33,143 nt of DNA, taken from the NCBI GenBank assembly GCA_031278715.1, contig JAITJW010000105.1, forward strand, positions 1-33,143, in the 5' to 3' direction. Of this stretch, positions 4,723 through 28,039 are shown in pieces. This DNA is from Treponema sp. (lineage in GTDB: Bacteria; Spirochaetota; Spirochaetia; Treponematales; Breznakiellaceae). The position numbers and the translations under genes were made by a program. How positions within the stretch are numbered: the first letter of the stretch is position 1; each line of letters begins with the position of its first letter. The notes below the pieces were generated by a model, which did no database searches, was not told the DNA's origin, and worked only from the letters and a program-made list of their open reading frames with translations.

Positions 4723-4814
4723 TAGCAGCCTGTTGCACTGGCCTTATGGCTGCGCCATAAGGCCTTGTAGGTTTTAAGCGCGAAGCGCAACAAACTGCTA
4801 GCAGTTTGTTGCGC
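4723..4814 (+). repeat. inverted-repeat element, copy R1, plus 30-nt palindrome
   Basis: The element spans 4723-4800. It starts TAGCAGCCTGTTGCAC and ends GCGCAACAAACTGCTA, which are imperfect inverted repeats of each other. An internal hairpin has perfect 11-bp arms (GGCCTTATGGC, loop TGC). The final 16 bases are followed at once by their own reverse complement, making a perfect 30-nt palindrome at 4785-4814. It lies between the convergent ends of rny and the exporter gene, so it may work as a bidirectional terminator or an mRNA 3'-end stabiliser. It is related to the copies at 20171, 22062 and 28004. Confidence 0.85.
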
Positions 4815-5322: not shown

Positions 5323-6011
5323 CCTTCTGCCTCTTTGCCGCCATCCCCCAAAACCGTAGCATCGGCTACGCCGTCGGCGTAGCCGTTCAGAATCAGTTCC
5401 CAATATCCTACATCCAGCCGCTTGCCCAGCTTATAACCAGTCTCATCGAACTGACCGACTTTTTTGAAGGCAAAGCTTTCGTGAAGCCTCACGCTTGCCG
5501 GGTTGGGGAGGGTAATCGCGGCCATCACCACGTGAAGCCTTGTCTGCCGCAGTTCCCCTATCACCCGCTCCAAAAGCCGCCGGCCAATACCCTGCCGTTC
5601 CCAGCCCGGTTTAAGGTAGATCGAATCTTCTGCCGCAAAGCGGTAGGCCGCACGCTGGTGCCAGGCATGGGCATAGGCGTAACCCACAATCTCTCCCCTT
5701 TCCTCCCAGACAAACCAGGGGTACCGGACAATAACTTCCCTGATCCGTTCCGCCATCGTTTCAATACTCAGCGGTTCTTCCTCAAAGGTAACAACCGTAT
5801 GCTTGATGTAATAATTGTAAATCTCCGCAATCCCGGAGGCGTCCCCAGGACAGACCGGTCGCAGCGTTCCGGGACTGCCGCTTTGCACGCCGGCCCCCGG
5901 TTCTTCGACCCTTGGCTTTTTAAGCCTTGGCTTTTTGAGACTTGGTTCTCCGACCCTTGGTTCTCCGACCCTTGGCTTTTTGAGCCTTGGCTGTTCTGCG
6001 GCCTGGTCCAT
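5319..6011 (-). CDS. GNAT N-acetyltransferase, phosphinothricin/methionine-sulfoximine type
   Basis: This is a cytosolic acetyl-CoA-dependent N-acetyltransferase related to the Pat/Bar/MddA group, which acetylates phosphinothricin, methionine sulfoximine or similar amino acids. The domain runs from LRPVCPGDASGIAEIYNYYI (about residue 50) to YWELIL. It includes the acetyl-CoA loop WERQGIGRRLLERV and the family's ITLPNPASVRLHESF. The ATG directly follows the TGA of the upstream gene (TGAATG), which suggests translational coupling. The first 45 residues are unusual: six 15-bp tandem repeats encode alternating LKKPR-like basic and VGEPR-like mixed-charge pentapeptides. If these were not translated, a GTG just before the GNAT domain could be the start. 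The C-terminal tail is also extended, by a palindrome. Confidence 0.88.
   Translation of the reverse strand: MDQAAEQPRLKKPRVGEPRVGEPSLKKPRLKKPRVEEPGAGVQSGSPGTLRPVCPGDASGIAEIYNYYIKHTVVTFEEEPLSIETMAERIREVIVRYPWFVWEERGEIVGYAYAHAWHQRAAYRFAAEDSIYLKPGWERQGIGRRLLERVIGELRQTRLHVVMAAITLPNPASVRLHESFAFKKVGQFDETGYKLGKRLDVGYWELILNGYADGVADATVLGDGGKEAEG
5363..5385. repeat. palindrome near the 3' end of the acetyltransferase gene
   Basis: Perfect 10-bp arms CGGCTACGCC and GGCGTAGCCG flank a GTC loop. It encodes part of the non-conserved C-terminal tail (GYADGVADATVLG) of the acetyltransferase. The sequence lies after the last conserved GNAT residues, as expected for a small palindrome inserted late in a gene. 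Confidence 0.6.
5901..5990 (-). repeat. six 15-bp in-frame tandem repeats at the start of the acetyltransferase
   Basis: Six units of 15 bp begin CCAAG and end in either TCAAAAAG-like or TCGGAGAA-like sequence, for example CCAAGGGTCGGAGAA twice in succession. They encode the pentapeptides PRLKK, PRVGE, PRVGE, PSLKK, PRLKK and PRVEE. The unit length keeps the reading frame for any copy number. Confidence 0.85.
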
Positions 6012-11424: not shown

Positions 11425-13341
11425 ATGGCTAAAGCAACGGATCTCTATGTCATTATGCGGGCATATTCGAATAAAAATAACTCTCCCTATATCGATATAG
11501 ACACTTTTATAGCCTTTCTTTCGAAATACGTTGTTCGCCTGGCTGCCGAACAGCCCGAATGGGCCGATTGGGTCAACGATACAAGCCTGAAATTCTGGAA
11601 TGCTATGGGGGAATACTCCGAAGACGGCCGCTGTGTTCTTCTTACTGATACGCCCCAGGGCCGGGTATACCTGCCGTACTACATCGTGGACAGGCTGAAG
11701 GAGGCGTACCGGGACCTGGATGAATCCGCCGACATACCCTTCCCAAACGAAGACTACTTCGCGGTTAAGCTGCCGCCGGATCAAACCCAAATGCTCAGCC
11801 TGGAAACGGATCTGGTTCCCTATTTTGACAAGCCGGTTACAGCGTTTCTTCCGGTTATTAAGCTGGTATTTCTTGAAAGCGGACTGGACGCCCTGATTCT
11901 TGCCCCTATGATCCCCCACCGTCTGCTGGAAGCGGCAATCCTTAAGATCCGCTACCATGTCAAGCAGCATAACAACCGCGAGTACTACATGCACAAACTT
12001 CTCCCCATGTTCCAGAACAAGGAAGGAACCCTGCGGGAAGCTCTGGAAATGCTGAATTCCCGGCCCCTGGACTGCCTGAACGCCATAGAAGGGGGGGGAG
12101 AAGTAACCTACCTGTTTTGGGCTTCCCTCTGTTCATTTCTTAAAAACGATCTTCGGAAAAAAACCGAGCGGCTTTCCGGGGACGTGGCTGTTTTGGAAGG
12201 GGTTCATATCGTTGAGACCTGCCTGAACCTCTATAAAACCAGGCTGCAGCGGGAACGGGAGAAGGAAACCGCCCTTCGATCCCTGGATCAGCTTATGGAC
12301 AAACCCCCCTATTACTTTACCCAGGATCAGATCATCAAATTTACCGACACCAAAGGGGCACTCCTTCTTAACCAGTACACCGAAGCGGATCTGAACGCCT
12401 ATATCAAGAAAAAGGTCAACGAAAGCGTGGAGGGCGCAATTCCCGAATGGCTGGTGGTACAGTCAAAAAACGGGGAGCAGTACTATCTAAAAAAAGATAA
12501 GTATCTGCCCCTGGTAACCCGGCTTATCTTTGATGCCCAGAACGTCATAAAACAGGAAGTTGCCGACCGCTGGACTGCTATGCTTGGTAATTTTAAGTCT
12601 GAACCGGCAATGGAAATGGATTCGGAATTTGAACGGCTTCTTGCCAATCTAAACACCACCATGAATCCGCTGCTTGCCACTTTTTTGGAGGATAAGAAAC
12701 TCCCCTGGGTCTATGATGAGCTGGAACGGACCCAAAAGGTCATTCCTCCCGCATCCCGGATATTTGAGCGGGGAAAACTAATTCCTTATAGCTTGCTCTT
12801 TGTGATGAAACGCAAAGATATGCTTTTCGACGCCAAGATGTCCCTGCCCTTTTGGTACTCAATTCCGGTTATCAGTTCAATTATCGCCTTTTTTGCCAGA
12901 CTGAGGAAGAAGAAGAAAAAAGGCTATCAAACGATCAAGAAACCCAGCGAAACCATCGAAGCAGCTGAGGGAGATATTACAACGAGCAGGGGTAATCCCA
13001 AAGATTTTATCAACAGTGTTCGGGAAATTGAGACCCAAATGGTCCCCATAGACAAGGACATTGACAGCTATCTTGAGGAATTGCAGAATCATTGGGGGCA
13101 GCTTCTGGACCCAAAGGCCCAACGGAATCTGGTGGAGGATGTAAACTCTCTGGTTCGGGACAATCTGCGGCAGTCGATACGCGTATGGAAAAAACAGCGT
13201 CTTAGTTCGATCAACCTGCAGGACCTGGCCCAGGGAATTATTAACGGAACCCCCGTACTGCGGAGCATACACAGCCGGGATGCCCTTCTTCTCTACATGC
13301 AGATTTACATGGTAAAAATTCTGAAAACCGTAAAAATTTAG
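11425..13341 (+). CDS. 638-aa orphan protein, unknown function
   Basis: I do not recognise this protein. It is long, charged and mostly alpha-helical in appearance. It has no signal peptide, and one hydrophobic stretch at about residues 474-491 (WYSIPVISSIIAFFA) is followed directly by a basic cluster RLRKKKKK. That could be a single membrane anchor or a buried helix. The N-terminal 160 residues, with several aromatic clusters (YLPYYIVDRL, DYFAVKLPPDQ), look like a folded domain. The C-terminal 130 residues look helical (SYLEELQNHWGQLLDPKAQ). Codon use matches its neighbours, so it appears native. It lies between the CDF exporter and ssb. It may be a spirochaete-specific cytoskeletal or membrane-associated protein, but nothing in the sequence proves a role. 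Confidence 0.85.
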   Translation: MAKATDLYVIMRAYSNKNNSPYIDIDTFIAFLSKYVVRLAAEQPEWADWVNDTSLKFWNAMGEYSEDGRCVLLTDTPQGRVYLPYYIVDRLKEAYRDLDESADIPFPNEDYFAVKLPPDQTQMLSLETDLVPYFDKPVTAFLPVIKLVFLESGLDALILAPMIPHRLLEAAILKIRYHVKQHNNREYYMHKLLPMFQNKEGTLREALEMLNSRPLDCLNAIEGGGEVTYLFWASLCSFLKNDLRKKTERLSGDVAVLEGVHIVETCLNLYKTRLQREREKETALRSLDQLMDKPPYYFTQDQIIKFTDTKGALLLNQYTEADLNAYIKKKVNESVEGAIPEWLVVQSKNGEQYYLKKDKYLPLVTRLIFDAQNVIKQEVADRWTAMLGNFKSEPAMEMDSEFERLLANLNTTMNPLLATFLEDKKLPWVYDELERTQKVIPPASRIFERGKLIPYSLLFVMKRKDMLFDAKMSLPFWYSIPVISSIIAFFARLRKKKKKGYQTIKKPSETIEAAEGDITTSRGNPKDFINSVREIETQMVPIDKDIDSYLEELQNHWGQLLDPKAQRNLVEDVNSLVRDNLRQSIRVWKKQRLSSINLQDLAQGIINGTPVLRSIHSRDALLLYMQIYMVKILKTVKI

Positions 13342-19108: not shown

Positions 19109-20173
19109 ATGAATAGGGAAATAGACCAGAGGCTTGGGAAGATTGAAGCGGTTTTGGATACATGGCTGCCCGCGGCCTTTGATTCCGGCTGGGCATCCAG
19201 GGTTTTCCCCGGTCTGGGAATTGCCCCGGAACTCCTTGGAAGCCTTGCCCTTCCCTGCCGGGACCTCCTTTCCCGTGGGGGTAAACGCTGGAGGCCTTTG
19301 CTGATGACCCTGATCTGTGAAGCCTTGGGGGGAGGGGACGCGGCCCTGCCCCTGTCGCCGCTGGTGGAATTTTGTCATAACGCCAGCCTTATCCATGACG
19401 ATATTGAAGATAACTCGGACCAGCGCCGGGGTAGTCCCGCAATACACCTGGTCTACGGAACCGATACGGCTATTAATTCGGGGAGTTTTTTCTACTTCCT
19501 TCCCCTGGCCTGCGCCGGCGCCTGGGATGCTCCGGCGGAACAAAAGGCACGGGTTTTTGGTATCTGGGGGGAGTACATGCGGCGGCTCCACCTGGGGCAG
19601 GCTATGGATATTCACTGGCACCGGGATTTTAATTCCCTGCCCGGTCTGGACGCGTACTACACCATGTGCGGCCTTAAAACCGGCTGCCTGGCCCGGCTTG
19701 CTGCGGTTTTGGGGGTCCTGGCGGCCCTGCCCATGCCGGAGGCCCGGAGCGGCGAAGCGGCGGAACGGCTGGGGAGTGCGGCGGAAAAACTGGGTGTGGG
19801 TTTTCAAATTCTGGATGATGTGAAGAATCTAAGGACCGGGCTTCCCGGAAAAAGGCGGGGGGATGATGTGGTGGAGGGGAAAAAGAGTCTCCCGGTGCTT
19901 CTTTATTTGCATGGTGAAGCCGGGGCCGGTCCAAGACGGGCCCTGGTAAGCCGCTGTTTCAGCAGGGCCCGCGCCGGGGGAGTTTCCGTGCCGGAGGTGG
20001 AGGAACTGATTGCCGCCCTGGAAGCGGAGGGGGCTTTGGAACGGGCCCTGGAACAGGGCCATGCCCTGATCCGGGCGGCGGCGGAAACTTTTGCGGCCCC
20101 TTCCGTTGCCGGCCTGTGCTTGAATGAGGAGGGCCGCCGGCTTCTGGCAGGACTTATCGGCCTTATCAGCTAG
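19109..20173 (+). CDS. polyprenyl (geranylgeranyl/farnesyl-type) diphosphate synthase
   Basis: This trans-isoprenyl diphosphate synthase extends allylic diphosphates with isopentenyl diphosphate for quinone, carotenoid or undecaprenyl-type lipids. GGKRWRP (57-63) and the first aspartate-rich motif DDIED (97-101) in IHDDIEDNSDQRRG are intact. The second motif, normally DDxxD, reads DDVKN (236-240) in FQILDDVKNLRTG, with asparagine in the last metal-binding position. KRRGDDVVEGKKSLP follows as in active family members. At 354 aa it is slightly longer than FPP/GGPP synthases because of extra residues after the second motif. Its TAG stop is the first three bases of a repeat element that also starts the next gene. 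Chain length cannot be judged safely. Confidence 0.9.
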   Translation: MNREIDQRLGKIEAVLDTWLPAAFDSGWASRVFPGLGIAPELLGSLALPCRDLLSRGGKRWRPLLMTLICEALGGGDAALPLSPLVEFCHNASLIHDDIEDNSDQRRGSPAIHLVYGTDTAINSGSFFYFLPLACAGAWDAPAEQKARVFGIWGEYMRRLHLGQAMDIHWHRDFNSLPGLDAYYTMCGLKTGCLARLAAVLGVLAALPMPEARSGEAAERLGSAAEKLGVGFQILDDVKNLRTGLPGKRRGDDVVEGKKSLPVLLYLHGEAGAGPRRALVSRCFSRARAGGVSVPEVEELIAALEAEGALERALEQGHALIRAAAETFAAPSVAGLCLNEEGRRLLAGLIGLIS

Positions 20174-20222
20174 CAGCCTGTTGCACTTGGAGGTTTTATG
20201 AGCGAAGCGCAACAAACTGCTA
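20171..20222 (+). repeat. inverted-repeat element, copy R2, forming a gene junction
   Basis: This 52-bp copy has the same ends as R1 (TAGCAGCCTGTTGCAC and GCGCAACAAACTGCTA) but lacks the internal 11-bp hairpin. Its first three bases are the stop codon of the polyprenyl synthase. Its middle reads TTGGAGGTTTTATGAGCG, where R1 has TTGTAGGTTTTAAGCGCG. The changes create GGAGG (20189-20193) and the ATG (20198) used by the next gene. Confidence 0.88.
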
Positions 20223-20947
20223 ATCTGTATGATAACGAAATGCTAAAAACTGAAATATGGAGCGTTGCCCGTGTTGATCAGGGGAACGCGGTTCTGCTGC
20301 GGCCTCTGGGCTCGGATACCGTGGTACCTATCTTTATTGGGGATGTTGAGGCTCACGCTATCATCCTTGGGCTGGGGGAGATACAAGCGGAACGGCCCCT
20401 GACCTGCGATACCCTGCTGGAACTGTCCCGGCGTCTGGGACTTAACTTGTTTCGGGTAGAGGTGTACGAAATAAGGAAAGATACCTTTTATGCCCGGCTT
20501 TTCTTTTCCGGCTGCGGGTATTCCCGGTCGCGGCCCCTGGTTATCGAAAGCCGCCCCTCCGATGCTATAGCCCTGGCGCTTCGGGAAAAGTGTGGCGTCT
20601 ATGTGACGCCCCAGGTGCTGGACCGGGCGGGGGTTCCCGCGGAGGTGTTCATCGAAGGAGTCGCTGATGCTATGGGGAATGACCTGACCGGGAGTGGCCT
20701 GGCCAAGAGTGGCCTGGCCAAGACTGGCCTGGCCGGGAACGAAATTCCCAGGGAAACGGTTTCGGAAAAGCGGTCCCGAAGTCCGGGGCGGAAAAGGGGG
20801 AACCCCCTGGTGGCAAAGCGGCGGCGGCTCCAGGCGGAGTTGGAACAGGCGCTGGCAGAGGAGGCATACGAGCGGGCGGCGGATATTCGGGACCTTCTGA
20901 TCCTGCTTGACCAGCAATTGGAGCAGGAACGCTGGAAGACCCCTTAA
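20198..20947 (+). CDS. bifunctional nuclease (BFN) domain protein with UVR tail
   Basis: This is a predicted DNase/RNase of the BFN (DUF151) family, here with a C-terminal UvrB/UvrC-type interaction motif. The BFN domain begins at about residue 15 (MLKTEIWSVARVDQGNAVLL) and includes VVPIFIGDVEAHAI and IESRPSDAIALALRE, both family hallmarks. The UVR motif is the helical pair KRRRLQAELEQALAEEAYER then AADIRDLLILLDQQLEQE at the C-terminus. Between them lies a variable linker with four 15-bp repeats. The ATG at 20198 has GGAGG at a spacing of four; both lie inside repeat element R2, so residues 1-8 (MSEAQQTA) are repeat-derived. The in-frame ATG at 20240 fits the domain start but has no ribosome binding site. 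Confidence 0.9.
   Translation: MSEAQQTANLYDNEMLKTEIWSVARVDQGNAVLLRPLGSDTVVPIFIGDVEAHAIILGLGEIQAERPLTCDTLLELSRRLGLNLFRVEVYEIRKDTFYARLFFSGCGYSRSRPLVIESRPSDAIALALREKCGVYVTPQVLDRAGVPAEVFIEGVADAMGNDLTGSGLAKSGLAKTGLAGNEIPRETVSEKRSRSPGRKRGNPLVAKRRRLQAELEQALAEEAYERAADIRDLLILLDQQLEQERWKTP
20678..20737 (+). repeat. four 15-bp in-frame tandem repeats in the BFN-UVR linker
   Basis: The units are AATGACCTGACCGGG, AGTGGCCTGGCCAAG twice, and ACTGGCCTGGCCGGG, encoding NDLTG, SGLAK, SGLAK and TGLAG. They lie between the nuclease domain and the UVR motif, where length change should be harmless. Confidence 0.85.
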
Positions 20948-21006: not shown

Positions 21007-22050
21007 TTGGCGTTTATACCTCCGGAATCGTTGACCAGACTGAAATTTCCGGCGCAGATACAACGGGTGTTCTGTACCGAAACTTGGCTGTGGAGCTTTC
21101 GTCTCTTTGTCCGGCTGGTTCTGGTCGCCGCTGTTGTCCATTTTCTTCCCACACAGGGCCTGTTCACGGCCCGCTCCCAGGAGCCCCTTGTGGAGGAGGT
21201 GGGGGTCGGCGGCGGCGCCTATCCCCAGAGCGGCGATCCTGGAATTTTTGAGGAAGAGGAGCTGCCGGAGGGTGATCCGGCGCTGGACGGTATTCCGGAA
21301 CCGGAACTTTTCTCAAAACCGCGCGTCCTCCTTTCGGAATCGTACCGGGTGGAAAGGGGAGACATAATAAGTAACCTGGCCCGGAAATTCGGTCTGAATC
21401 AGGATACCCTTATCTCGTACAACGCCATAAAAAATACCCGGCTTCTGCAGATAGGTCAAATTCTTAAAATCCCCAACCAGGACGGGATTCTCCATACGGT
21501 AAGCCGGGGGGATACCCTGAATAGCCTGGCGGAAACGTACAAAACGAGCCCGGAAGATATCAAAATGGTAAACGAGCTATTTTCTGATGGTATCCGGGAA
21601 GGAACCACCCTGTTTATCCCCGGCGCGCGGCTGGATTGGGTGAATTTGCAGGAGATCAACGGGGATCTCTTTATTTGGCCTATAACAGGACGTATCACCT
21701 CGCCCTACGGTTACCGGGCTGACCCCTTTACGGGGGTGGGTAGACAGTTCCATTCGGGTATAGATATAGGCGCCATAAGCGGTACCCCCATCCGGTCTGC
21801 CATGTCGGGCCGGGTTATCGTGGCGGGGTGGAGCGATGTTTACGGGAACTACGTGGTGGTAAACCACCATTCGGGGTACCGGACCCTGTACGCCCACATG
21901 AGCATTATCCGTGTAAAAACCGGTGAGTATGTGGCTACCGGCCAGCGGCTGGGGGATGTGGGTAGTACCGGGCGCAGTACCGCCCCGCATCTGCATTTTA
22001 CGGTTTATAAAAATGGTGTAACGGTGAATCCCCGGACTTTGATGAAGTAG
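21007..22050 (+). CDS. M23 metallopeptidase with two LysM domains
   Basis: This is an exported peptidoglycan hydrolase or NlpD/EnvC-like regulator of cell-wall splitting. The N-terminal 35 residues are basic and aromatic, followed by a membrane or signal segment at about 31-48 (FRLFVRLVLVAAVVHFL). An acidic linker precedes two LysM domains at about 112-156 (YRVERGD...LKIP) and 163-205 (HTVSRGD...LFIP). The M23 domain follows with metal ligands H249 and D253 in FHSGIDIG and H330 in HLHF, plus H297 in LYAHM and H328. All catalytic residues are present, so it should be active. The start is TTG at 21007 with GGGAG seven bases upstream. A repeat element follows the gene. Confidence 0.93.
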   Translation: MAFIPPESLTRLKFPAQIQRVFCTETWLWSFRLFVRLVLVAAVVHFLPTQGLFTARSQEPLVEEVGVGGGAYPQSGDPGIFEEEELPEGDPALDGIPEPELFSKPRVLLSESYRVERGDIISNLARKFGLNQDTLISYNAIKNTRLLQIGQILKIPNQDGILHTVSRGDTLNSLAETYKTSPEDIKMVNELFSDGIREGTTLFIPGARLDWVNLQEINGDLFIWPITGRITSPYGYRADPFTGVGRQFHSGIDIGAISGTPIRSAMSGRVIVAGWSDVYGNYVVVNHHSGYRTLYAHMSIIRVKTGEYVATGQRLGDVGSTGRSTAPHLHFTVYKNGVTVNPRTLMK

Positions 22051-22061
22051 GCTGTACTGGC

Positions 22062-22137
22062 ATCAGCCTGTTGCACTGGCCTTATGGCTGGGCTATTTGG
22101 CCTTGTAGGTCTTATGCGCGAAGCGCAACAAACTGCT
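22062..22137 (+). repeat. inverted-repeat element, copy R3
   Basis: This copy runs from CATCAGCCTGTTGCAC to GCGCAACAAACTGCTA. It keeps the internal GGCCTTATGGC arm, but the partner arm has decayed (GGCTATTTGGCC). It lies between the convergent ends of the M23 gene and the 670-aa gene. In its centre it reads TTGTAGGTCTTATGCGCG, with an ATG that starts no gene. Confidence 0.85.
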
Positions 22138-22148
22138 ATGGGGGCCTT

Positions 22149-24161
22149 CTACTTGAGGGAATGTTCCCGCCCTATGATGGATTCCACAAGGTGCAGGAAT
22201 TTTGGGTCCAGGTTCCGGGTGGTTTCCAGTGTGGGGTCCAGAATATCGCTGTTTATCAGGTGAATACCATCCTGCTCCTGGACAGGTCCTTCTCCCGGTT
22301 CCGGCAGGGGTCGCAGGAGGGTGGGCTTGGCGTTTCCGCGGAACTGAAAGGGCTGGTAGATAAGCGGCAGCCCGCCATTTTCACTTATTTCTTCCAGTCC
22401 CCCGTGCGCCACGGTCTGTTTTTTTTTACCTGGTTCTCCCGGGGAAGCCGGTTTAATGCCGGTAAAATCGGGAGATTCAAAGTTGATGGAGTCGAAAGGT
22501 GAAGACATATCCATTTCCGGGGCATCTTTACTATCTCCGTCTGGGTTTTCCGCATCATCCGGTGTTGACAATACGTTAACACCTGTAGAGGAATCGGGAC
22601 CGAATTCTATCCGGCTGGCAAGGGTGGCCAGATCTTCCGGTGTTATCGGAACAGGGGGATCTTCCAGGGGTTCCAGCTCCGTTACCAGTTCATTGTCATC
22701 CCCGTTTTCAAAGGTTTCGGAGGTAACAATGGTTTCTGCGGGGGAATGTTCATGTTCTACGTAGCTATCTTCCGGGTAGCTATCTTCCAGCGTTTTCGCT
22801 TCCGCTACTTCTTTTGTATCTTCTGCCTCTACCAGTTCCTCAAGTTCTTCCGGTTCGGCAGCTGTCCCGGTCAAGGGGAGGACAGAAGCAGATCCTCCTG
22901 CGGTATCCTGCACGGATATACCCGGAACGGTTTCCCGAAGTACCTTCCTGATAAGGGTCCGTATGTTTTCTTCGTCAAATTCTACAGAGGGACCGGTAAA
23001 CGCAAGCAGCTTATCCCATGACCGGTCAATAAGGGTGTCGATATTTCTGTCTTTGTCCCGGGGCAGTCCCCGCTTAATTTCAAGCCGGACATCTTCCCGC
23101 CGCTGTTCCAGTTCCCGCCTCCAGCGTTTCCAGTCCATATCAGTTTTGGTATCGTAGTACTGACGTATTAGGGAAATTTGAAGCTGTTTAAGCCGGCTCA
23201 TGATTACCGTAAAACTGTCCTGTCTTAGGTTAAAAATCAGGAAGATAATCAGGAATGTCGTAAGAAAGAAAGAAGCCAAAAGGATAAACCGCATTACGGG
23301 CGGCAAAACCAGGACATTTTCCTGTACCAGGCGGCCTACAAAAAAACCTGTGTTGGACTTGGCCGATATTAGTGTCAGGGGTTCTACTTCCGTGTAATCC
23401 GGAAGAAAAAGGGTAAAAATGTCTTCCTGCCAGGCGGCGGCAGCCTCGCGCTTAAGGTTTCCCGTTTCCGCGGCGGGAAGGCCAAGAAGAAAACCGTTGG
23501 GGGAATCAACAAGTACAATATTCTCCCCAATTTTAATCTGTCCCTGCCGGATCAGGCGCCCGGTAAGGGCCTGCACGGAGAGGGTAAAAAGGGCGCTGCC
23601 CCGGTACACATCAAGAGAATCGGAAAAAGGGTAGGAAAAAATCAGCTGTTCTTCGGAGCTGTCAAAGACGATCCGGGGTAACTGCCCCTCCTCTGTCTCA
23701 ACATCCATATACGGCAGAACCCCGGGACAGTCCCGGTAACTCCGGTAGGACAGGGAAGAACCGGTTTGGGTCAGTACATCATCGGCCAGGGTTGAAAAGT
23801 GAATCCGGCTGCCCCCGGCGTCCACAAAGCGGATTGTCCTGAGCCCCGGCAGAGAATTCATCAAAAGGCCGTAGAGTCTTGACCGCTCAAAGATGTCTTC
23901 CACCTCTTGATTGGGAAGAAAGCTGCGCTTTACCGCCTCGTTTTCAAGGGTATCGGCAAAATGGTCCTGTAGACTATCGAGCAGGGTAGTGATGGTTTGG
24001 GCGAATTCTTCAACTTCGCGGTCCAAAGACTTAACGATCTGCGGGCTGTAAAAACGGGTTTCCACCAAATTGAACAGGCCGGTAAACGCCAGCAGGCTGA
24101 AGGCGGCAAAAAGTATTATCGATATGATTAGGCTACTGATGGTCCTTTGGGGCAGATTCAT
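22149..24161 (-). CDS. two-helix membrane protein with extracytoplasmic domain and acidic tail
   Basis: I do not recognise a named family. The 670-residue protein has a first membrane helix at about 9-31, an extracytoplasmic domain of about 250 residues and a second helix at about 290-311. The middle domain resembles the size and placement of Cache-type sensor domains (RFVDAGGSRIHFSTLADDVL, YMDVETEEG, NIVLVDSPNGFLLGLP). A basic cytoplasmic juxtamembrane part (WKRWRRELEQRREDVRLEIK) is followed by a long acidic, proline-rich, low-complexity tail. No HAMP, kinase, cyclase or chemotaxis signalling domain follows, so a sensor without a known output or a scaffold is possible. The tail contains a duplicated EDSYP/EDSYV pentapeptide. 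The ATG has no close ribosome binding site. Confidence 0.8.
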   Translation of the reverse strand: MNLPQRTISSLIISIILFAAFSLLAFTGLFNLVETRFYSPQIVKSLDREVEEFAQTITTLLDSLQDHFADTLENEAVKRSFLPNQEVEDIFERSRLYGLLMNSLPGLRTIRFVDAGGSRIHFSTLADDVLTQTGSSLSYRSYRDCPGVLPYMDVETEEGQLPRIVFDSSEEQLIFSYPFSDSLDVYRGSALFTLSVQALTGRLIRQGQIKIGENIVLVDSPNGFLLGLPAAETGNLKREAAAAWQEDIFTLFLPDYTEVEPLTLISAKSNTGFFVGRLVQENVLVLPPVMRFILLASFFLTTFLIIFLIFNLRQDSFTVIMSRLKQLQISLIRQYYDTKTDMDWKRWRRELEQRREDVRLEIKRGLPRDKDRNIDTLIDRSWDKLLAFTGPSVEFDEENIRTLIRKVLRETVPGISVQDTAGGSASVLPLTGTAAEPEELEELVEAEDTKEVAEAKTLEDSYPEDSYVEHEHSPAETIVTSETFENGDDNELVTELEPLEDPPVPITPEDLATLASRIEFGPDSSTGVNVLSTPDDAENPDGDSKDAPEMDMSSPFDSINFESPDFTGIKPASPGEPGKKKQTVAHGGLEEISENGGLPLIYQPFQFRGNAKPTLLRPLPEPGEGPVQEQDGIHLINSDILDPTLETTRNLDPKFLHLVESIIGREHSLK
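22761..22790 (-). repeat. two 15-bp in-frame repeats in the acidic tail
   Basis: GTAGCTATCTTCCGG and GTAGCTATCTTCCAG lie side by side on the plus strand and encode EDSYP-like pentapeptides on the minus strand. They are the shortest of the in-frame arrays in this window. Confidence 0.65.
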
Positions 24162-27937: not shown

Positions 27938-28003
27938 CGGAATTTGTCCTGTATCGCCCCTCAATGGCTGCGCTGTGGGCGGGGGGCAGGCTGCCGGTTT
28001 TTT

Positions 28004-28017
28004 GCAACAGGCTGTTA
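28004..28017 (-). repeat. fragment of the inverted-repeat element (R4)
   Basis: On the minus strand this reads TAACAGCCTGTTGC, which matches 13 of the first 14 bases of the R1 and R2 elements. No right end is present. The neighbouring plus-strand sequence CAATGGCTGCGC (27963-27974) recalls the R1 hairpin loop, so a decayed copy may span about 27960-28017 in the gap between convergent nadE and the AhpF-like gene. Confidence 0.45.
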
Positions 28018-28039
28018 GTACACAAGGCCGGAAGACCGG

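Follow-up and report, generated by a model that had tools for sequence, protein, structure and literature searches.

It is proposed that repeat copy R2, a 52-bp sequence between a polyprenyl synthase gene and a BFN nuclease gene of a Treponema sp., came to its place by a MITE-like insertion, rebuilt the stop codon of the upstream gene, and now provides the GGAGG and ATG from which the BFN gene is translated; as a whole explanation of the junction, we regard this as quite probable. R2 is a small non-autonomous mobile element of MITE-like type, and its relatives in the same genome are numerous. The window analysed comprises 33,143 nt (contig JAITJW010000105.1, positions 1 to 33,143, assembly GCA_031278715.1), in which the following features are referred to below.

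4723..4800, plus strand: repeat copy R1, 78-bp form, with a further inverted end right after it (4799-4814)
19109..20173, plus strand: polyprenyl synthase gene (open reading frame; PF00348, E 4.3e-47; empty site in the related genome G001)
20171-20173, plus strand: polyprenyl synthase stop codon TAG, the TA of an old TAA plus the G of the element
20171..20222, plus strand: repeat copy R2 (empty site in G001 and genome-wide family)
20189..20193, plus strand: Shine-Dalgarno (SD) sequence GGAGG within R2 (from the sequence)
20198..20947, plus strand: BFN nuclease gene as read from the element ATG (open reading frame of 249 aa; PF02577, E 1.5e-28; UVR motif)
20229..20231, plus strand: ATG, relic of the ancestral BFN start, its frame off by one base; also in G001 (by comparison with G004 and others)
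20240..20242, plus strand: alternative in-frame BFN ATG, the conserved second Met of relatives, with no SD
22061..22138, plus strand: repeat copy R3, 78-bp form, between two converging genes; not in G003 at this place
28003..28030, minus strand: isolated end fragment of the family

R2 reads TAGCAGCCTGTTGCACTTGGAGGTTTTATGAGCGAAGCGCAACAAACTGCTA on the plus strand, an inverted-repeat element in which a duplicated TA (20171-20172 and 20221-20222) flanks GCAGCCTGTTGC...GCAACAAACTGC. A preliminary description had placed a repeat at 20171-20222, overlapping the polyprenyl synthase TAG and carrying the GGAGG and ATG of the BFN gene, and both its coordinates and its features hold. The GGAGG is 4 nt from the ATG, which is in frame with BFN; GGAGG and an SD-preceded start are found at this junction only inside R2, and the BFN frame has an in-frame TAG at codon -9 relative to the element ATG. 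This ATG lies 14 residues upstream of the conserved BFN Met, and residues 1-8 counted from it (MSEAQQTA) are repeat-derived, as had been claimed: the repeat-free relatives have no MSEAQQTA. Within BFN, a short internal peptide repeat (SGLAKSGLAKTGLAG) occurs between the nuclease domain and the UVR motif (20690-20740).

The insertion can be followed in the closest genome, G001 (80% protein identity). The G001 junction, ATCAGCTAATCTGTATGATAACGGTATGCTAGAAACTGAAATATGG, is an exact empty site with a single TA, reading ATC AGC TAA, so that the polyprenyl synthase stop is TAA there and TAG here. Between CAGCTA and ATCTG our genome has 52 extra bases, the flanks being alike save for point differences, and the TA found once in G001 occurs twice around GCAG...CTGC. 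Because the empty site is exact and holds a single TA, the alignment shows that R2 was inserted into a TAA stop and that the TA was duplicated in the process. R2 is absent from the other same-genus loci too, and is known from one genome only. The element entered at the TA of the polyprenyl synthase TAA and duplicated it, leaving the old stop and the former start region of BFN further apart by 52 bp; since intact element ends read TA+GCAG, TAG was regenerated on insertion and the upstream protein left unchanged. The idea that the repeat supplies the upstream stop is therefore only partly right: the TAG overlaps R2, but only its G comes from the element, the TA predating the insertion, as G001 indicates. 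The same data bear on whether R2 is instead a REP-type palindrome mobilised by a RAYT, or a regulatory hairpin acting at the RNA level, and not a TA-duplicating MITE. Short palindromes in high copy, one of them with a predicted RNA hairpin (z -2.56), would suit such a proposal; the TA at both ends against one TA in the empty site, the CTA(G) context of the ends, the loss of the hairpin with retention of the SD-ATG at larB in G001 (see below) and the absence of any Rfam match in the window make it hardly probable at all.

The arrangement of the junction in relatives suggests what the insertion changed. In 31/31 loci examined, BFN is directly preceded by a polyprenyl synthase gene of the same orientation. 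Most same-genus genomes without the repeat have the stop and the BFN start overlapping or no more than ~30 nt apart: they overlap in G004 (TAATGGATAAC), the junctions on two G003 contigs read TAGTCTATGACAGATGAAATG and TAATATGACAGACGGGATG, and in G005 BFN starts ~28 nt past the stop. The two genes were thus close-packed already before R2 arrived, and the suggested coupling of lipid gene and nuclease gene by the repeat is not supported, the pair being adjacent, co-oriented and close-packed without it. G002, also free of R2, has a longer spacer before BFN (L043, contig C22), which may hold an old fragment of the repeat family: it contains AAGTTTTAAGCGCGAAGCGCGGCAACTCCC, which is like the right half of the element and may be what is left of a separate insertion at this junction. 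The two G003 versions of the pair (L041 and L045, contigs C49 and C252) sit in one bin, one of them with an in-frame TGA in the match, and perhaps represent two strains.

Across the 31 loci, most BFN proteins open M-x-x-(x)-M-x-x-x-E-I-W, and in most BFN genes the start, as a rule preceded by an SD, lies three or four codons upstream of the conserved Met. The ancestral start region, ATGGATAAC in G004, has become ATGATAAC in our genome by a one-base frame shift. Because a one-base offset takes this first Met out of frame in the lineage of our genome and G001, translation of BFN in G001 probably begins at the counterpart of the 20240 Met, without an SD. As stated in the preliminary description, the in-frame ATG at 20240, which is the nearest other one, has no ribosome binding site; it is preceded by TGTATGATAACGAA. 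In relatives free of the repeat the predicted start differs, and the N-terminus is not identical. It could be argued that R2 is neutral for BFN, with translation still beginning at the 20240 Met by reinitiation past the polyprenyl synthase stop and the element ATG a coincidental in-frame codon. The 20240 Met does correspond to the second, conserved Met of relatives, G001 has no other in-frame ATG nearby, and in-frame placement, which has a one-in-three chance, is not enriched among copies of the element. Against this, 20240 lacks an SD and now lies 66 nt from the upstream stop, compared with ~14-16 nt without the element, R2 offers a GGAGG, a 4-nt spacer and an in-frame ATG, and other genes do start on such copies; we therefore consider a neutral R2 unlikely. 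BFN is most likely translated from the GGAGG and ATG of R2, with a new 14-residue N-terminal extension.

R2 belongs to a large family, and the claim that the repeat is of a mobile type is borne out by this as well as by the empty site. R2 has 41 matches and R1 51 matches in the genome, and the terminal pattern TAGCAGYYTGTTGYDC, allowing at most 2 mismatches, has 240 matches against 15 for a reversed control, which gives an estimate of about 225 recognisable family ends in the genome. The census that follows is a sample of the genome taken from fetched stretches. The terminal inverted repeat TAGCAGYYTGTTGC is present at both ends, and paired elements are mostly of ~52 bp (the basic form), of 77/78 bp (with the palindrome GGCCTTATGGCTACGCCATAAGGCC inside) or composites of 103-202 bp. 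Between the ends, the sequence varies around TTG(G/T)AGGTTTTA(T/A)GCGCGAAGCGC; an ATG is present in 27/52 sampled inner sites, AAG, ACG or AGG replaces it in many copies, and GGAGG and ATG occur together (GGAGGTTTTATG) at other loci besides R2. It had been proposed that two small differences between R1 and R2 created the GGAGG and ATG; both are recurrent variants of the family that came in with the element, and hence the differences are not an adaptation at the BFN site. Every other genome of the genus carries the start half of the element, and so do some other genera of the family. It also occurs in 67 stretches from named GTDB genomes, each of them a Treponema or Spirochaetaceae MAG; these presumably come from termite guts. 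A scan for relatives by BFN protein among the named genomes found none. At the position of R3, G001 has ~3.8 kb of sequence that is unrelated to ours (window 22050-22165 compared with L048). A 15-nt tandem-like repeat of the CTTGGCTTTTTGAGC type lies inside a minus-strand ORF at 5881-5995.

The ends of these elements fall preferentially on stop codons. Open frames running into 76 distinct ends that begin with TAG, from the fetched stretches of our genome, were measured, gene calls being open frames of at least 100 codons and not annotated genes. Frames of this length ended in the TAG frame and the other two frames in a 38/8/4 ratio (P ~8e-10 for equal frames), and in a 34/7/4 ratio at 133 ends of relatives (P ~8e-9), meaning that long ORFs take their in-frame TAG from half of the sampled ends in our genome and from a quarter of those in relatives. 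When 22 such genes were looked up in G001, 18 orthologues could be placed, 11 of which stop at exactly the same codon and most of the rest no more than a few codons away. A C precedes the TA at 114/133 ends in relatives, and CTA|TAG is the commonest flank pair. CTAG is very rare in the relatives' contigs (25 seen against ~636 expected), and CTAG and TTAG are the TA tetramers most often found at stops. The siting is best explained by CTAG-type targeting: with a CTA(G) target and ends reading TA+GCAG, stop codons would often be hit and TAG always rebuilt there, and the loss of insertions within genes would add to the share on stop codons. It might instead be held that the family is a selected gene-junction module, kept at stop-start junctions for ending and initiating genes. 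Half of our sampled ends lie on stop codons, compared with roughly 13% per strand of element-free CTAG sites, and the SD-ATG half occurs widely both inside and outside the genus and is conserved at larB, which would fit; however, target choice together with loss from genes can give the same siting, most compared element sites are element-free in the sister species, the frame of the ATG is at chance, and many copies have another triplet in place of the ATG. Such a module is, in our judgement, quite improbable.

Use of the element as a start is clearest at other genes. The names truB, rnc, larB, tilS, ychJ and permease were read off the protein sequences without a family library and are what we take these genes to be. 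In truB of our genome (L008; contig C185, ~12895-12943) an element sits within the 5' portion of the coding sequence. The native start, which is that of G001, persists, and the frame it opens meets a TAG within the element; coding restarts in the same frame at the element ATG, two codons past that TAG, and the next 60 codons, the conserved GFLLLDK motif included, contain no other ATG, GTG or TTG, making the element SD-ATG the only credible candidate start. The same applies to an RNase III-like rnc in G006 (L081, contig C129), which would begin MRGAQQSAG... on an element: there is an in-frame stop just before the element ATG, the 60 codons that follow are free of further ATG, GTG or TTG, and the element SD-ATG is again the only credible predicted start. 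larB starts on an element in both our genome and G001, whose copies are identical at 14/14 positions of TTGGAGGTTTTATG and differ at 14/38 of the remaining positions (P 0.005). In G001 the hairpin of the element is lost and the SD-ATG kept, and a conserved hairpin as the selected feature was accordingly rejected at larB. G004 and G005 have ordinary tight junctions before larB. In our genome (L002; contig C71, 15477-16392) family elements bound larB at both ends, two in tandem giving the stop of the upstream gene and the larB start, and a third, of 122 bp, giving the larB stop. A layout like that of R2 is found at L228 (G001, contig C47), where a 448-codon frame ends on an element TAG and a 440-aa permease-like ORF starts at the element ATG, with an alternative ATG at codon 10.

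Two further candidates were rejected as element starts. ychJ has a conserved in-frame ATG downstream; in tilS (L146, contig C93) an ATG lies further upstream, as it does in G003, and since this native ATG is in the same frame, the partial element near the tilS N-terminus is an internal insertion. We regard a start as domesticated where the element offers the only usable start or where two or more species have conserved its SD-ATG. One or the other was found at truB, rnc and larB, at which putative domestication of an element start is well supported; at BFN itself, for which domestication had first been suggested, an alternative ATG is present and R2 occurs in a single genome. Long ORFs downstream of element ATGs lie in frames 0/1/2 at 16/12/12, with no enrichment, and selection for the ATG frame across all copies is not supported by these numbers, which match chance. 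Start use is accordingly seen as opportunistic exaptation and not as a dedicated system.

At BFN, the element interior TTGGAGGTTTTATG happened to fall in frame with the gene, in-frame starts being hit at a chance rate across copies and kept where useful. In the predicted R2 RNA hairpin the stop lies at the foot and GGAGG...AUG in the loop; a terminating ribosome could free the SD because the TAG is at the hairpin foot and the 5' arm would be covered, so ribosomes ending the polyprenyl synthase may open R2 and restart at the SD-ATG in the loop. The hairpin is a plausible coupling device on this folding model, although, judged from larB, it is not the conserved part. Use of the element start would predict the N-terminal peptide (M)SEAQQTANLYDNEM for BFN, with SEAQQTANLYDNE as the BFN peptide of the element start, (M)REAQQTARESSGF for TruB and (M)GEVQQTASVEHD for LarB; a BFN start at 20240 would give the N-terminus MLKTEIW.

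The family has the features of bacterial MITEs, being short (52-202 bp), multicopy (tens of copies in the sample, ~225 ends in all) and devoid of a transposase gene, with terminal inverted repeats and a target-site duplication evident from the empty site; its TA target, preferably within CTAG, is that of IS630/Tc1-mariner elements. No autonomous IS with matching ends was found in our genome or in relatives, all incomplete drafts: our genome has an 80-aa DDE_3 fragment, and the DDE_3 loci of relatives have no ends matching the family. The ends may also derive from IS5-family subgroups with similar targets. IS630 prefers the TA in 5'-CTAG-3', as cited in work on ISY100, and IS630/Tc1-mariner elements such as ISY100 resemble R2 in TA duplication and CTA(G) context (PMC2170065); unlike them, R2 encodes no transposase, and no transposase with R2 ends was found. 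Among the closest known systems is RUP of pneumococcus, likewise a short high-copy element with terminal inverted repeats inserted at TA; it has 107 bp and about 108 copies, is attributed to IS630-Spn1, and is reported to contain stops in all six frames with no other functional signature (PMC2229807). R2 differs in its 52 bp, in having an SD-ATG followed by an open frame, and in sitting on stop codons. In-frame repeat-derived peptides also join host proteins through the Rickettsia palindromic elements (RPE), reviewed as ~150-bp inserts within reading frames (PMC10969869), whereas R2 lies between genes, where it ends one and offers a new start to the next. The Coxiella QMITEs, like the R2 family, alter host protein ends, extending or ending proteins (for example the enhC C-terminus); unlike R2, they are described in the passages found with neither an element-supplied start nor genome-wide siting on stop codons (PMC5896051). 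In the literature searched, outside which most subscription papers lay, no family was described that both rebuilds stops and supplies SD-ATG starts.

MITEs add promoters, terminators and in-frame peptides to their hosts, and the pattern reported here is a variation on MITE behaviour and not a new category. Its interest lies in the wider pattern of a mobile element that sits on stop codons and is able to donate starts. We tentatively suggest, at somewhat less than even confidence, that the family acts as a portable stop-SD-start junction, which lands on stops, rebuilds them and repeatedly starts the next gene (with the tag M[RS]EAQQTA, and at truB, rnc and larB), selection keeping the SD-ATG as the rest decays. 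By virtue of its end sequence and target choice, this one family lands on stops without damage, and its interior can take over translation initiation of the next gene. The family is a clear natural case of how gene starts move and why predicted N-termini differ between sister species, and of how selfish DNA is tolerated in dense operons.
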